64,000 nucleotides of DNA, taken from NCBI RefSeq assembly GCF_002161215.1, contig NZ_NFMB01000002.1, positions 310,001 to 374,000 on the forward strand. The letters run 5' to 3'. Source of the DNA: Flavonifractor sp. An10. Its GTDB lineage: Bacteria; Bacillota; Clostridia; Oscillospirales; Oscillospiraceae. The position numbers and the translations under genes are program-made. The notes under the pieces are model-generated. The model was not told the origin of the DNA. It ran no database searches and saw only the letters and a list, made by a program, of their open reading frames with translations. Positions 7,384 to 64,000 of the stretch are shown piece by piece (position 1 is the first letter of the stretch; every line of letters starts with the position of its first letter).

Positions 7384-8625
7384 TCAGCCCTCCCACTTCT
7401 TAAACAGCACGCAGGCGTTGTGGCCGCCGAAGCCCAGGGAGTTGGACAGGGCGTATTCCACCTGCTGCTCCCGGCCCTGGTTGGGGATGTAATCCAGGTC
7501 GCAGGCCGGGTCGGGCACCTGGTAGTTGATGGTGGCGGGCAGGAAGCCGTCCCGCAGGCCCAGGGCGGTGAAAATGGCCTCCACCGCGCCGGCGGCCCCC
7601 AGCATGTGGCCGGTCATGGACTTGGTGGAGCTGACGGCCAGGCGGTGGGCATGCTCGCCGAACACGGTCTTGATGGCCGCGGTCTCGCCGGAGTCGTTGA
7701 GGGGGGTGGAGGTGCCGTGGGCGTTGATGTAGCCCACCTGCTCCGGAGACACCCCCGCATCGGACAGGGCCTGGGCCATGGCCCGGGCGCCGCCCTCCCC
7801 GTTGGGGGCGGGGGCGGTGATGTGGTAGGCGTCGCAGGTGGCGCCGTAGCCCACCACCTCGGCGTACACCTTGGCTCCCCGGGCCATGGCGTGCTCGTAC
7901 TCCTCCAGCATCAGGATGCCGGCGCCCTCGCCCATGACGAAGCCGTTGCGCTCGGCGTCGAAGGGGATGGACGCCCGGTTGGGATCGTCCCCCACGTGGA
8001 GGGCCCGCATGGTGGTGAAGCCGCCCATGGACAGGGGGGTCACCGCCGCCTCGGCGCCGCCGCAGAGCATGACCTCGGCGTAGCCGTCCCGGATGTGGCG
8101 GAAGGCGTCGCCCACCGCGTTGGAGCCGCCGGCGCAGGCGGTCACCGGGCAGGTGCACATGCCCTGGAAGCCGGAGAGGATGGCGATATAGCCCGCGCCC
8201 ATGTTGGCGATGGTGGTGGGGATATAGAAGGGAGAGGCCCGGTCGTAGCCCTTCTCCGAGCAGCGCAGGGTCTCGCTCTCGGCCATCTCGATGCCGCCCA
8301 CGCCGCTGGACACGATGACGCCGCAGCGGGTGAGATCCTCCTGCTCACGGTTCAGGCCGCTGTCGGCCAGGCACTCCTTGGCGGCGGTCATGGCCAGCTG
8401 GATGTAGCGGCTCATGTGGCGCACGTCCTTCTTGTCCAGCACGGTGGTGGGATCCCAGTCCTTCACCTCGGCGGCCAGATGCACCTTCTGGGCGGAGCAG
8501 TCGTAGTGGGTGATGGGGCCGATGCCGCATACCCCGTCTTTGACGGCCTGCCAGGTATCGTCAGCGTTGTGGCCCAGGGGGGTGATGGCCCCCAGGCCGG
8601 TTATCAGCACTCTGCGTTTTTCCAT
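7384..8625 (-). CDS. fabF: 3-oxoacyl-ACP synthase II FabF
   Basis: 413 residues from ATG 8623-8625 with AGGAG upstream; the longer frame adds only repeat-derived residues. Thiolase fold with catalytic Cys164 in CPVTACAGGSNAVGDAF, His in INAHGTSTPLND and His in STKSMTGHMLGAAGAVEA. It condenses malonyl-ACP with acyl-ACP to elongate the chain. It is separated from fabG by a 680-nt repeat-rich interval although both lie on one strand. Confidence 0.96.
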   Translation of the reverse strand: MEKRRVLITGLGAITPLGHNADDTWQAVKDGVCGIGPITHYDCSAQKVHLAAEVKDWDPTTVLDKKDVRHMSRYIQLAMTAAKECLADSGLNREQEDLTRCGVIVSSGVGGIEMAESETLRCSEKGYDRASPFYIPTTIANMGAGYIAILSGFQGMCTCPVTACAGGSNAVGDAFRHIRDGYAEVMLCGGAEAAVTPLSMGGFTTMRALHVGDDPNRASIPFDAERNGFVMGEGAGILMLEEYEHAMARGAKVYAEVVGYGATCDAYHITAPAPNGEGGARAMAQALSDAGVSPEQVGYINAHGTSTPLNDSGETAAIKTVFGEHAHRLAVSSTKSMTGHMLGAAGAVEAIFTALGLRDGFLPATINYQVPDPACDLDYIPNQGREQQVEYALSNSLGFGGHNACVLFKKWEG

Positions 8626-8654
8626 ATTACTTGTTGCTCCTCCTTGTCGAGCGG

Positions 8655-8728
8655 CGGCCGCCATGTATGGCGGCCCTACAAGAAACCAAGATTGTATCCG
8701 TTTGTAGGGCGGCCATATATGGCCGCCG
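8655..8728. repeat. palindromic mini-element between fabG and fabF
   Basis: Two 27-nt arms, 8655-8681 and 8702-8728, are inverted copies with three mismatches. They carry GGCGGCCCTACAA and TTGTAGGGCGGCC and enclose a 20-nt AT-richer centre. It encodes nothing and resembles the small GC-rich palindromic (REP/MITE-like) elements common between genes of gut Oscillospiraceae. Family assignment is inference. Confidence 0.65.
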
Positions 8729-8759
8729 GGTGCGGTTCAATGCCGCGGGGACACACGCC

Positions 8760-9170
8760 CGACGGCTCGCCGCTTCTCGCTGTCACGGCTTGCCTGCTCG
8801 CGACGCCCGGCTTCCCTCCGTCTCGGGCTGGTCTGCGGGCCGCCCTGCGGCCCTGCGCTCGCCCTCGCTCCGATCCATCCGGGCTGCTCCCGACGGCTCG
8901 CCGCTTCTCGCTGTCACGGCTTGCCTGCTCGCGACGCCCGGCTTCCCTCCGTCTCGGGCTGGTCTGCGGGCCGCCCTGCGGCCCTGCGCTCGCCCTCGCT
9001 CCGATCCATCCGGGCTGCTCCCGACGGCTCGCCGCTTCTCGCTGTCACGGCTTGCCTGCTCGCGACGCCCGGCTTCCCTCCGTCTCGGGCTGGTCTGCGG
9101 GCCGCCCTGCGGCCCTGCGCTCGCCCTCGCTCCGGTCCATCCGGGCTGCTCCCGACGGCTCGCCGCTTCC
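8760..9170. repeat. 131-bp tandem repeat, three full copies plus a partial copy
   Basis: Copies begin with CGACGGCTCGCCGCTTC at 8760, 8891, 9022 and (partial) 9153, exactly 131 bp apart. The copies are almost identical; one visible change is GATCCATC to GGTCCATC in the third. As 131 is not a multiple of three, each copy is read in a new frame, and the open frames seen across it are not conserved proteins. No spacers separate the copies, so it is not CRISPR. It sits inside the fatty acid operon between fabG and fabF. Confidence 0.85.
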
Positions 9171-9300
9171 AGGTGTCATGCTTCGCGCCCTCCGCGACGG
9201 GCAACTGCTCACCGCTCCGCGAAAAACACCTCGCGCCTGTGGCGCGACTGCTTTTTCGTCTGCGCGGCTCGCTGTTGCCCTGCTCCCGGGCGCTCCGCAC
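9171..9300 (-). repeat. dispersed intergenic repeat, copy 1
   Basis: This ~130-nt stretch immediately after the fabG stop is a diverged copy of 57,306-57,440. Shared blocks include CGCGCCCTCCGCGACGG, CTGCTCACCGCTCCGCGAAA, AACTGCTTTTTCGTCTGCGC-like and CTGCTCCCGGGCGCTC. Relative to transcription both copies lie in the same sense and directly follow a stop codon. It merges into the 131-bp tandem units, with which it shares the GAAGCGGCGAGCCGTCG end. Confidence 0.75.
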
Positions 9301-9306
9301 TTCTCC

Positions 9307-10050
9307 CTACATCCCCATTCCTCCGTCCACAGAAAGCACCTGGCCGGTGATATAGGCGGCCTCGTCGGAGGCCAGGAAGGCCACGGCGGCGGCCACGTCC
9401 TCCGGGGTGCCGGGGCGGCCCGCCGGGATGGCGGACAGCATGGCCTCCCGGGCGGCCTCCGGCAGGGCGGCGGTCATATCGGTGGCGATATAGCCGGGGG
9501 CCACCGCGTTGACGGTGATGCCCCGCCCGCCCAGCTCCTTGGCCAGGGACTTGGTCATGCCGATGACGCCCGCCTTGCTGGCGCAGTAGTTGATCTGGCC
9601 CGGGTTGCCCCGCAGGGCCACCACGGAGCTGAGGTTGATGATGCGGCCGTACTTGGCCTTCATCATGGGCCGGGCGGCGGCCTTCATGCACAGGAAGGTG
9701 CCCTTCAGGTTGGTCTCAATGACCGCGTCGAAGTCCTCCTCCTTGAGCATCATGGCCAGGTTGTCACGGGTGATGCCCGCGTTGTTGACCAGGATGTGCA
9801 GGCCCCCCAGCTCCTTGACGACGGTGTCGATCAGGGCCTTGACGGCGGCGGGGTCGGCCACGCTGCCCTGGACGGCCCGGGCCTGCACGCCCAGGGCCTC
9901 CAGCTCCTTCAAAGTCTCCTCCGCGGCGGCGGTGTTGCCCGCGTAGGAGAACACCACGTTGGCGCCCCGGCGGGCCAGCTCCAGGCAGATGGCCCTGCCG
10001 ATGCCCCGGCTTCCGCCGGTGACCACGGCGGTCTTTCCAGTAAAGCTCAT
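9307..10050 (-). CDS. fabG: 3-oxoacyl-ACP reductase FabG
   Basis: 247 residues, short-chain dehydrogenase. It shows the NADPH site TGGSRGIGRAI near residues 11-21, NNAGITRDN, the catalytic Ser in INLSSVVALRGN, and YCASKAG with Tyr and Lys. C-terminus ends QVLSVDGGMGM as in FabG. It reduces 3-oxoacyl-ACP. The start lies 4 nt after the fabD stop, so the two are coupled. Confidence 0.95.
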   Translation of the reverse strand: MSFTGKTAVVTGGSRGIGRAICLELARRGANVVFSYAGNTAAAEETLKELEALGVQARAVQGSVADPAAVKALIDTVVKELGGLHILVNNAGITRDNLAMMLKEEDFDAVIETNLKGTFLCMKAAARPMMKAKYGRIINLSSVVALRGNPGQINYCASKAGVIGMTKSLAKELGGRGITVNAVAPGYIATDMTAALPEAAREAMLSAIPAGRPGTPEDVAAAVAFLASDEAAYITGQVLSVDGGMGM

Positions 10051-61178: not shown

Positions 61179-62684
61179 ATGTCTCTCATTGAGATTCGCA
61201 ATCTGACCTTCGCCTATCCCGGCAGCTTTGACAACGTCTTTGAGGGGCTCAATCTCCGGCTGGACACCAGCTGGCGGCTGGGCCTGGTGGGCCGCAACGG
61301 CCGGGGCAAGACCACCCTGCTGCGGCTGCTCCTGGGGGAGTACGAGTACAGCGGCGCCATCTCCGCGCCGGCGGAGCTGGCGTATTTTCCGCCCAGGGTG
61401 GCCCATCCGGAGGCGGACACCCGCGCCGTGCTGGAGGAGCTGGCACCCGGCCTGGAGGAGTGGCGGCTCCTCAGGGAGCTGGCCGCCCTGGAGGTGGACG
61501 AGGGAGTGCTGGACAGGCCCTTTTCCACCCTCTCCGGCGGGGAGCAGGTGAAGGCGCTCCTGTCCGTCCTCTTCCTGCGGGAGGGCGCCTTCCCCCTGCT
61601 GGACGAGCCCACCAACCACCTGGATCTGGAGGGGCGGCAGCTGGTGAGCCGCTGGCTGTCCCGGAAGGAGGGCTTCCTGCTCATCTCCCACGACCGGGCC
61701 TTCCTGGACGGCTGTGTGGATCACATCGCTGCCATCAACAAGAAGGACGTGGAGGTGCGGCAGGGGGACTTTTCCGCCTGGTGGCGGGACAAGCAGGCCC
61801 GGGACGACTGGGAGCGGGCGGAGAACAGCCGCCTGAAAAAGGAGATCGGCCGGCTGGAGGACGCCGCCCGGCGCACTGCCGCCTGGTCCGACCGGGTGGA
61901 GGCCAGCAAGAAGGGGAGCCGGAACGCCGGCCTGCGGCCCGACCGGGGCTACATCGGCCACAAGGCCGCCAAGATGATGAAGCGCTCCAAGGCCGCCCAG
62001 GCCCGCCGGGAGGAGGCCGTACAGGCCAAATCCGCCCTGCTGAAAAACATCGAGCTGGCGGAGGAGCTGAAGCTCCACCCCCTCACACACCCCAAGGCCC
62101 GGCTGGTGGAGGTGAAAGAGGCCGCCCCCGATTACGGGGGCGGCCCGGTGTGCGCCCCCGTCTCCTTCACCGTGGAGCGGGGGGAGGTGGCGGCCCTGAC
62201 CGGCCGCAACGGCTGCGGCAAGTCCAGCCTGCTCAAGCTGGCCTGCGGGGAGGACATCCCCCACACCGGCCTGTTTGCCCTGGCCTCCGGGCTGGTGGTG
62301 TCCTGGGTGCCCCAGGACGCCTCCTTCCTGCGGGGCTCCCTGCGGGACTTTATCCGGGACAGCGGCGTGGACGAGACCCTGTGCAAGGCCATCCTGCGCA
62401 AGCTGGACTTCTCCCGGGCCCAGTTTGACAAGGACATGGCCGACTACAGCGCCGGGCAGAAGAAGAAGGTGCTCCTGGCCCGCAGCCTGTGCCAGAGCGC
62501 CCACCTGTACGTGTGGGACGAGCCGCTGAACTATATCGACGTGTTTTCCCGCATGCAGCTGGAGCGGCTGCTGCAGGCATATCACCCCGCCATGCTTCTG
62601 GTGGAGCACGACCGGGCCTTCCTGGACGGCCTGGCCGACAAGCTGGTGCCGCTGCACGCCGGGGCCGCGTCCGGCGGGAGGTAA
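61179..62684 (+). CDS. Lsa-type ABC-F ribosomal protection protein
   Basis: 501 residues, two ABC domains without membrane segments. Walker A GLVGRNGRGKTTLLRLLLGE and ALTGRNGCGKSSLLKLACGE; signatures STLSGGEQVKALLSVLF and DYSAGQKKKVLLARSL; Walker B PLLDEPTNHLDLEG and YVWDEPLNYIDVFS. A long interdomain linker (KKEIGRLEDAARRTAAWSDR ... KMMKRSKAAQARREEAVQAK) is the antibiotic-resistance domain. The opening SLIEIRNLTFAYPGSFDNVF resembles Lsa proteins, which displace lincosamides, pleuromutilins and streptogramin A from the ribosome. The drug spectrum here is not known. Confidence 0.93.
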   Translation: MSLIEIRNLTFAYPGSFDNVFEGLNLRLDTSWRLGLVGRNGRGKTTLLRLLLGEYEYSGAISAPAELAYFPPRVAHPEADTRAVLEELAPGLEEWRLLRELAALEVDEGVLDRPFSTLSGGEQVKALLSVLFLREGAFPLLDEPTNHLDLEGRQLVSRWLSRKEGFLLISHDRAFLDGCVDHIAAINKKDVEVRQGDFSAWWRDKQARDDWERAENSRLKKEIGRLEDAARRTAAWSDRVEASKKGSRNAGLRPDRGYIGHKAAKMMKRSKAAQARREEAVQAKSALLKNIELAEELKLHPLTHPKARLVEVKEAAPDYGGGPVCAPVSFTVERGEVAALTGRNGCGKSSLLKLACGEDIPHTGLFALASGLVVSWVPQDASFLRGSLRDFIRDSGVDETLCKAILRKLDFSRAQFDKDMADYSAGQKKKVLLARSLCQSAHLYVWDEPLNYIDVFSRMQLERLLQAYHPAMLLVEHDRAFLDGLADKLVPLHAGAASGGR

Positions 62685-62733: not shown

Positions 62734-62793
62734 GGTTACCCGCCGGAAACCGCTCAATTGTTACCAGCCGGTAACTATAGCACATTATTGTGC
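62734..62793. promoter_or_regulatory. tandem operator-like palindromes upstream of the peptide locus
   Basis: GTTACCCGCCGGAAAC (62735-62750) and GTTACCAGCCGGTAAC (62760-62775) agree at 14 of 16 positions and are 25 bp apart; a third palindrome GCACA-TTAT-TGTGC is at 62780-62793. All lie just upstream of the -35 box, so an activator or repressor site is likely. Confidence 0.55.
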
Positions 62794-62797
62794 GTAC

Positions 62798-62826
62798 TTT
62801 TCAAAAGACGGAAGGACTGCTACAAT
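62798..62826 (+). promoter_or_regulatory. promoter of the ACGX peptide locus
   Basis: TTTTCA (62798-62803), 17-nt spacer, TACAAT (62821-62826), 44 nt before the precursor start. The -35 is weak, consistent with need for an activator. Confidence 0.65.
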
Positions 62827-62870: not shown

Positions 62871-63089
62871 ATGTCATTGAAGAATCTGTTCAGCCTTGGC
62901 AGGGATCGGGAGGAGAAGCCCACAGCCTGTGGGACGGCCTGCGGTTCCGGCGACAAGAAGCCCACAGCCTGCGGGACGGCCTGCGGTTCCGGCGACAAGA
63001 AGCCCACAGCCTGCGGAACGGCCTGCGGCAGCGGCGACAAGAAGCCCGCAGCCTGCGGAACGGCCTGCGGCAGCGGCGACAAGAAGTAA
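62871..63089 (+). CDS. ACGX-repeat ribosomal peptide precursor
   Basis: 72 residues from ATG 62871 with AAGGAGG upstream. A 15-residue leader (MSLKNLFSLGRDREE) is followed by four 14-residue repeats, KPTACGTACGSGDK three times and KPAACGTACGSGDK once, ending in Lys. Each repeat carries two Ala-Cys-Gly-X motifs, eight cysteines in total; the DNA repeats are 42 bp. It matches the target-peptide type of the predicted ACGX radical SAM system. It lies 66 nt before the radical SAM enzyme gene. No protease or exporter is visible before the window ends. Confidence 0.9.
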   Translation: MSLKNLFSLGRDREEKPTACGTACGSGDKKPTACGTACGSGDKKPTACGTACGSGDKKPAACGTACGSGDKK

Positions 63090-63155
63090 GGATACAGCCA
63101 GACCTCCCCGCGGGCCCCGGCCCGCGGGGACGCAATTCCAAGCGAGGGATCAGAC

Positions 63156-64000
63156 ATGGAGTATTTTGCGTTTCAATGGCACATCACCGAGGCCTGTGAC
63201 CAGCGGTGCCGCCACTGCTATATCTACGCCCTGGGCAGCCACGCCAGGTTTCAGGAGATGGCCCTGGAGGACATGCTGACGGTGATTCGGAACTGCCAGA
63301 CCTTCTGTGAGAAGGCGGGGCGGCTTCCCTACTTTTACATCACCGGCGGCGACCCTATCCTCCACCCCCAGTTCTGGACGCTGCTGGAGATTCTGCGCAT
63401 CGCGGACATCCCCTTCACCATCATGGGCAACCCCTTCCACCTGACGCCGGAGGCCTGCCGCCGGATGAAGGACTGCGGCTGCCGGAAATACCAGCTCTCC
63501 CTGGACGGCCTGCGGGAGACCCACGACGGCATCCGCCAGCAGCCCGGCTCCTACGACGCCACCATGGCGGCCATCCCCATGCTGCGGGAGGCGGGCATCG
63601 ACTCGGCCATCATGACCACGGTGTCCCGCTGGAATGTGCAGGATATCCCCGCCCTGGTGGACGAGGTGGTGGCCCATCGGGCGGACATCTTCGCCTTTGC
63701 CCGCTACTGCCCCTCTCCGAAGGATCGGGACGTGTGCTGTTCCCCGGAGGAGTACCGGGACATGCTGGAGCAGTGCTGGGAGAAGTTTCAGCACTACGAG
63801 GCGGAGGGGTGCCAAACCACCTTCAACCTGAAGGATCACCTGTGGACGCTGTTCCAGTATGAGAAGGGCCTGTTTGATCCCGGCCGGTATCCCGACGACG
63901 GGGTGGTCTACGACGGCTGCAACTGCGGCAACTGCCACCTGACCATCCTCTCCGACGGCGCGGTGTACGCCTGCCGCCGGATGGAGAGCAAGGTGGGAAA
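63156..64000 (+). CDS. radical SAM/SPASM maturase of the ACGX system, 3' end beyond window
   Basis: 281 codons visible from ATG 63156 (AGCGAGGGAT upstream). The SAM-cluster motif is CDQRCRHCYIYAL, CX3CX2C, in HITEACDQRCRHCYIYALGS. YFYITGGDPILHPQFWTLLE and YQLSLDGLRETHDGIRQQPG are further SAM-barrel motifs. A SPASM-type cysteine cluster starts at DGCNCGNCHLTILSDGAVYA with CRRMES and continues off the window, as expected for auxiliary 4Fe-4S clusters. It should install a radical modification, probably involving the cysteines of the adjacent precursor (inference). C-terminus is not visible. Confidence 0.9.
   Translation, partial: MEYFAFQWHITEACDQRCRHCYIYALGSHARFQEMALEDMLTVIRNCQTFCEKAGRLPYFYITGGDPILHPQFWTLLEILRIADIPFTIMGNPFHLTPEACRRMKDCGCRKYQLSLDGLRETHDGIRQQPGSYDATMAAIPMLREAGIDSAIMTTVSRWNVQDIPALVDEVVAHRADIFAFARYCPSPKDRDVCCSPEEYRDMLEQCWEKFQHYEAEGCQTTFNLKDHLWTLFQYEKGLFDPGRYPDDGVVYDGCNCGNCHLTILSDGAVYACRRMESKVG

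Follow-up and report, generated by a model that had tools for sequence, protein, structure and literature searches.

A cysteine-repeat ACGX precursor and its radical SAM/SPASM enzyme lie in an operon with redox and ADP-ribosylation genes in Flavonifractor sp. An10

The ACGX operon and its gene products

A stretch of 64,000 nucleotides from Flavonifractor sp. An10 (contig NZ_NFMB01000002.1, here C8, positions 310,001 to 374,000; referred to as the window) ends in an ACGX gene pair, consisting of a small precursor peptide with repeated Ala-Cys-Gly (ACG) motifs and a radical S-adenosylmethionine (SAM)/SPASM maturase. The precursor gene (62871..63089, plus strand) encodes 72 amino acids with eight cysteines, and its product scored 60.1 bits against the NCBIfam model TIGR04341 (cut-off 28), which found no match in any of 14 control genomes. 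After an intergenic distance of 66 bp follows the enzyme gene (63156..64000, plus strand, continuing to C8:374193), with the first 281 of its 345 codons in the window; its product scored 600.7 bits against TIGR04340 (cut-off 400). As both proteins are above the curated cut-offs and are encoded side by side, the pair is a member of the known predicted ACGX family, as a first-pass annotation made from the sequence alone had proposed. Its caveat that the maturase frame might break behind the window is dispelled by an intact frame of 345 amino acids. The two models describe a predicted pair only (kinds 'subfamily' and 'hypoth_equivalog'), and their listing mentions neither a regulator nor a redox partner nor a link to a sirtuin.

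The precursor opens with MSLKNLFSLGRDREE, followed by four 14-residue repeats with two ACG motifs each. Repeats 1 to 3 are identical at the protein level and the fourth has Ala instead of Thr; thus, the 'four perfect repeats' described initially are off by one residue, whereas the count of eight cysteines and two motifs per repeat was correct. The DNA units also carry silent differences, and Tandem Repeats Finder assigned a 42-bp period to positions 62914..63086 (plus strand; 4.1 copies, 95% matches, score 276). All cysteines are specified by Cys codons, with no TGA-encoded selenocysteine, and no signal peptide was seen on inspection by eye only. The enzyme passes both the Radical_SAM and the SPASM model of Pfam. 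Its CX3CX2C motif is formed by C14, C18 and C21; these residues and the SPASM cysteines are conserved without exception among 14 aligned relatives, in agreement with the earlier assignment. As the radical SAM match starts at residue 10, there is no room in front of it for a recognition element (RRE) domain, for which no RRE model was run.

Sequence beyond position 64,000, where the first-pass annotation had suggested looking for a protease, exporter and second maturase, contains four redox and ADP-ribosylation genes instead. These encode a nitroreductase (NTR; C8:374190-374780; 72.9 bits with Pfam), a fusion of a PNPOx domain with ferredoxin clusters (PNPOx-Fd; C8:374785-375399, Pfam), a macrodomain protein (C8:375412-376203; PRK04143 334.7 bits, cut-off 272) and a class M sirtuin (SirTM; C8:376148-377029), all on the plus strand. 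The operon thus comprises six genes on one strand, with an ATGA overlap between the enzyme and NTR genes and no later gap above 12 bp; Rfam elements gave no match in it at gathering scores. The sirtuin scored 21.3 bits against Pfam SIR2, below the cut-off of 24. A profile of six relatives matched PDB 5a3a ('SIR2 family protein'), presumably the SirTM of S. pyogenes, at 2e-87. The protein carries QG in place of HG (RLFYTQGDYG), a replacement described as marking class M sirtuins (PMC4518038), and the gene is therefore that of a macrodomain-linked SirTM.

Relatives, gene order and upstream sites

Among 200 sampled genomes of the same family as the window genome, an ACGX enzyme above the cut-off was present in 15, including the window's own, and three other sampled genomes of its genus had none. 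A scan of genome contigs gave at least 578 confirmed relatives, the best 80 of which were combined with the 15 family loci to a neighbour set of 95 loci (94 distinct). Records among the relatives kept derive from Clostridia, Bacteroidales, Methanobrevibacter, Methanomethylophilaceae, Treponema and others, and thus from bacteria and archaea; the taxa carrying ACGX loci have an anaerobic life style. A few are cultured strains, such as Fonticella tunisiensis DSM 24455 (L093) and Hallella multisaccharivorax DSM 17128 (L067); most are metagenome-assembled genomes, so that some taxon names may be misbinned. Locus L048, under the ACGX cut-off, was left out of all neighbour counts. L049, on the same contig as L042, was used in neighbour clustering and the binned densities but not in the tree, precursor, gene-order, SirTM/QG and final motif/HxlR counts. 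The enzyme tree, without L046 and L075 as well, has 92 rows and was built by a quick method that leaves 27 of 89 inner branches open. Since a simple open reading frame (ORF) caller had missed GC-rich genes, among them three of the window's operon, neighbour genes were scored by six-frame searches with hidden Markov models (HMMs) built from the neighbour clusters, using far bins of the same loci as control; ORFs under 70 amino acids were left out of the clustering.

Using one finder, ACG-repeat precursors were detected in 79 of the 94 loci. The 15 remaining loci comprise eight with a contig starting too near the enzyme, two with masked letters, three with short or broken frames (L040, L055, L075), L043, whose precursor was missed by the main finder though found in an earlier search, and L053, with no precursor within 520 bp of the enzyme. 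L040 has no proper start-to-stop precursor, and in L075 the enzyme frame is split in two. A replacement of Cys by selenocysteine was considered for the loci without precursor and rejected; translations of 14 upstream regions besides that of the window, inspected by hand and with stop codons not distinguished, did not suggest it. The 79 precursors contain 2 to 11 cysteines, so the repeat number varies between relatives as anticipated at first pass, though slippage as its cause is not demonstrated. Five Methanobacteriaceae precursors (L080, L084, L099, L105, L109) have other repeats, such as ACGSDINTACGSDVTAS, with an acidic residue at +3, and some of these loci hold two or more HxlR genes.

The common gene order is HxlR (mostly divergent), precursor, enzyme, a quinone-oxidoreductase-like (QOR) or NTR gene, often PNPOx-Fd and often macrodomain plus SirTM. 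The first gene after the enzyme, scored in 85 loci, was QOR in 36, NTR in 30, PNPOx-Fd in 13, FdNTR, macrodomain and SirTM in one each, and none of these in three. With 4.5 kb of downstream sequence available (69 loci), QOR occurred alone in 31, NTR alone in 27, both in 2 and neither in 9 (p 2e-9), and the NTR/QOR state changes at least 17 times on the enzyme tree. That unrelated reductase types have replaced each other repeatedly at this position argues for a slot that needs a reductase, although PNPOx-Fd occupies it in 13 of the 85 loci. Of 28 neighbour clusters, the largest were assigned from sequence and HMMs and ten more by one Pfam-scanned representative each (two of these without Pfam match); no peptidase was among the clusters identified. 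Transporter clusters were few among the 95 loci (MATE 8, ABC ATPase 6); MATE genes occurred at 0.4 to 1.9 per 100 kb in five of the six bins and at 0 in the sixth, and the median start of the ABC ATPase genes was at −4.1 kb.

Of 81 scorable loci, 53 have an upstream gene for an HxlR-type regulator, a class that senses thiol stress, and in 48 this gene is divergent. When each of these 81 loci was given one label, 52 had HxlR, seven HxlR nearby elsewhere, eight a TetR-type gene and 14 none. The density was 27.3 HxlR hits per 100 kb in the bin 0.4 to 3 kb upstream versus 0 to 5.8 in five other bins. A Cys-Pro near the N-terminus is invariant in all ten aligned HxlR regulators; the one linked protein scored gave 103.2 bits with Pfam and 108.8 bits with the RrpB model (cut-off 175). 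Inverted repeats upstream of the ACGX loci converge on GTTAC-N6-GTAAC. Allowing up to one mismatch, 36 upstream sites were found in 32 of 86 loci (0.470 per kb) versus 14 sites elsewhere in the same loci (0.0124 per kb), an approximately 38-fold enrichment; 13 loci have an exact site, and HxlR is nearby in 27 of the 32. The motif was chosen after the sequences had been seen, so that the comparison of gap lengths and not a p-value serves as control: gaps of 3 to 5 or 7 to 9 gave at most three sites each (a count still including L049). Shuffled loci (one shuffle per locus) contained no site. The window has two such palindromes starting 25 bp apart, GTTACCCGCCGGAAAC (62735..62750, one mismatch) and GTTACCAGCCGGTAAC (62760..62775), the sole exact copy in the 3.88-Mb genome. 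Both operator-like sequences, listed without strand, are upstream of the first hexamer of a promoter-like site, TTTTCA-17-TACAAT with TG (62798..62826, plus strand; consensus match only, 0.2 expected in shuffles).

SirTM hits reached 11.3 per 100 kb just downstream of the enzyme versus 0 to 0.7 in the other bins. SirTM was present in 29 of 73 scorable tree rows (L076 a fragment, L101 partial), and its presence changes at least 18 times on the enzyme tree; together with the NTR/QOR changes, this indicates that the association recurs. QG is kept in 28 of the 30 SirTM matches in ACGX loci, the other two being fragments. At the genome level, SirTM was found in 13 of the 15 ACGX genomes of the family versus 51 of the 185 others (Fisher p 9e-6, ignoring kinship), in six of the 15 within the fetched neighbourhood. 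Nine loci combine ACGX genes with a complete or nearly complete QG-bearing SirTM and no detected macrodomain, though in two of them (L078, L086) the contig stops no more than 3.2 kb from where the enzyme starts and the gene could have been missed. SirTM with QG and no detected macrodomain was noted in L041, L057, L086, L091, L111, L114, L122 and L123 and may mark a system that runs one way or is reversed differently.

Outside the operon, thioesterase and xanthine phosphoribosyltransferase genes follow on the opposite strand, then a tRNA-Ser and an integrase gene. The region starting about 1.4 kb past the operon end (L003 8448-12190) contains this tRNA-Ser (8448-8540), the integrase gene (minus strand, 8582-9856) and ParB-like and relaxase genes, and is probably an integrated mobile element. 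The ABC-F protein encoded just upstream of the operon (window 61179-62684) falls short of the Lsa family cut-off (679 bits, cut-off 750) and exceeds that of the general ribosomal-protection-like model (430.3 bits, cut-off 380). A 131-bp tandem repeat is present at window positions 8758-9169 (3.1 copies, 99% matches).

Chemistry on the cysteines

The nearest characterised family to the window enzyme is SbtM (TIGR04082), the second-best NCBIfam model with 188.6 bits, short of the 350 required. The alignment leaves model positions 1 to 197 unmatched and extends almost to the model end; all 14 aligned relatives match this model. SbtM acts in a Cys-Gly context, and the ACGX precursor differs from its substrates in having no selenocysteine codon. 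The 79 precursors contain 471 cysteines in total, with Gly next in 455 and Ala before in 411, a Cys-Gly frequency biased upward by the finder, which requires two CG motifs; the spacing between cysteines differs widely. The proximity to SbtM and the Cys-Gly frequency favour a local Cys-Gly chemistry over thioethers, and a change local to each Cys would suit both the conserved Cys-Gly and the variable spacing. SbtM substrates are described to lose four hydrogens to form a thiooxazole (PMC11002830); for the ACGX peptide, thiooxazole formation is plausible.

Thioether links, as in ranthipeptides or sactipeptides, were the guess of the first-pass annotation; each Cys would be linked to a residue close by, such as Asp/Glu at +4, giving a mass change of −2 Da per link. 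PapB-type enzymes use a Cys-X3-Asp/Glu spacing, and outside the Methanobacteriaceae Asp/Glu is found at +4 for 206 of 416 ACG cysteines (precursors of the same finder, only Cys before Gly counted). The position +4 is occupied by Cys for 173 of the 416, three have Asp/Glu at +3 and 34 have neither, and the five Methanobacteriaceae precursors place the acidic residue at +3 in all 38 cases. SkfB (64.9 bits) is among the solved sequence relatives, as is 5wgg (49.9 bits, titled 'Radical SAM domain protein'), which we take to be CteB. Among the nearest folds to the predicted enzyme model (mean pLDDT 77.6, about 45-54 in the last 45 residues), namely SkfB, SuiB, BlsE and anSME, the first two and anSME would fit thioether formation; the predicted fold does not decide between the two chemistries. 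The scores for PapB (NF047865; 47.2 bits, cut-off 340) and StsB (50.1 bits, cut-off 625) are far under that for SbtM, and Gly follows nearly every Cys. We consider the thioether proposal weakened by these findings and doubtful, with the acidic residues at +4 in its favour.

A proposed role and its alternatives

The precursor-enzyme pair is already predicted in databases; in open-licence papers, we found neither a description of its gene context nor a function for it, nor a paper joining radical SAM, ribosomally synthesized and post-translationally modified peptide (RiPP) and HxlR. From gene order and upstream sites, we propose that the ACGX product is a cysteine-repeat RiPP acting inside the cell as part of an electrophile/thiol-stress regulon, a moderately supported reading for which we see about as much reason for belief as for doubt. 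Most scorable ACGX loci resemble the redox regulons of the YodB, CatR, HypR and RrpB type in having an HxlR gene upstream of nitro- or quinone-reductase-like genes; we know of no such regulon that controls a RiPP. The DUF24/HxlR-class regulators HypR, YodB and CatR are described to sense HOCl, quinones and diamide via an N-terminal Cys, identified as the oxidant-sensing residue in HypR and CatR, and their regulons include an azoreductase and a nitroreductase (PMC6943732). In the ACGX loci, a Cys-bearing regulator of the HxlR type would act on the GTTAC-N6-GTAAC sites and induce the operon under quinone, nitro-compound, disulfide or oxygen stress. The radical SAM/SPASM enzyme would then oxidise the Cys of each ACG motif, most likely to a thiooxazole in an SbtM-like, O2-free reaction (−4 H). 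The modified peptide would remain intracellular and handle redox, electrophile or soft-metal stress, the NTR or QOR-like enzyme clearing electrophiles or cycling the peptide and PNPOx-ferredoxin serving as electron partner. Finally, and more speculatively, SirTM and the Zn-macrodomain may attach ADP-ribose to a target linked to stress, perhaps the peptide itself, and remove it again.

Several observations weigh against the stress-regulon proposal. The neighbour HMMs were built from the very loci that they scored, and 54 of 86 loci have no motif at up to one mismatch. With one mismatch, the motif is rarer in the window genome than a reversed control (18 versus 39), so that single inexact sites mean little, and the position of the palindromes upstream of the promoter-like site fits an activator better than a repressor. 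The window locus has no adjacent HxlR gene. The protein of this genome that scores highest against the ACGX-linked HxlR regulators (L152, C1:347897-348205, 154.7 bits, next 106.2) is encoded on another contig and may act on the operon in trans; the 3.3 kb searched at its gene contain no motif at up to two mismatches. HxlR itself is described as rather aldehyde-specific (PMC6943732), and SirTM also occurs without ACGX.

Different functions for the peptide or its neighbours can be weighed against the same data. As a counterpart of the bufferins/oxazolins, RiPPs of the nonheme-iron (MNIO) enzymes, the peptide might buffer copper or another soft metal intracellularly by Cys heterocycles made by radical SAM chemistry. 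Both have repeats with two Cys-Gly motifs, here of 14 residues, and in the report on bulbicupramide the rings are tentatively assigned as thiooxazoles at Lys-Cys-Gly, Cu(I) is bound and the genes have no nearby proteases (PMC12538549). The enzyme class differs, the window operon contains neither MNIO nor DUF2063 genes in a Pfam scan of its proteins, and no metal exporter or regulator was among the identified neighbour clusters (two representatives without Pfam match); we regard metal buffering as unlikely. The mutually exclusive NTR and QOR genes could also perform a maturation step, reducing a residue that the radical SAM enzyme has left unsaturated. Such a shared task of enzymes with different cofactors is described for LanJA (zinc, NADPH) and LanJB (flavin), which act on dehydro residues in lanthipeptides (PMC11519912). 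The loci with PNPOx-Fd in this position or with neither reductase, and the nitroreductase described in HxlR-class regulons (PMC6943732), make this improbable. A secreted antimicrobial RiPP would follow from the general prior for radical SAM/SPASM maturases next to small peptides; with no peptidase cluster identified and MATE and ABC ATPase genes in few loci and not concentrated at the enzyme, it is very improbable.

The sirtuin link allows two interpretations. SirTM/Zn-macrodomain and ACGX may be independent arms of one HxlR regulon, with SirTM acting on, for example, lipoylated GcvH, a view to which we slightly incline and which is compatible with the stress-peptide explanation. In 20 SirTM loci without adjacent ACGX genes (six from ACGX genomes), HxlR was present in seven, and the motif (up to one mismatch) occurred in five of the seven versus two of the 13 HxlR-less loci. 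The window genome encodes GcvH (one strong and one weak match on C9) and LplA (one on C11) elsewhere. Against this stand the nine ACGX loci with SirTM and no detected macrodomain, which show SirTM to be more than a passenger of its usual partner. The extended SirTM/Zn-macrodomain operons described from Staphylococcus and Streptococcus likewise combine overlapping macrodomain and QG-sirtuin genes with oxidoreductase genes (PMC4518038, PMC11490716); compared with these descriptions, the window operon has the RiPP and radical SAM enzyme in the stead of GcvH-L and LplA2. The modified ACGX peptide might thus be the missing substrate of a SirTM/Zn-macrodomain branch, a ribosomally made thiol (thiooxazole) carrier replacing lipoyl-GcvH-L, made under electrophile stress in anaerobes and switched by reversible ADP-ribosylation. 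We rate this idea as rather unlikely and the ADP-ribosylation of the peptide as speculative; shared regulation alone could explain the SirTM link and is held likelier than a direct modification of the peptide.

The gene context suggests a testable role for ACGX as a stress-induced intracellular peptide in Clostridia, Bacteroidales, methanogens and others. Few targets of SirTM/macrodomain systems are known, and the ACGX operon names a candidate. If the thiooxazole chemistry proves true, radical SAM enzymes would have a second route to this group, which is known in the present context from nonheme-iron (MNIO) enzymes and SbtM.
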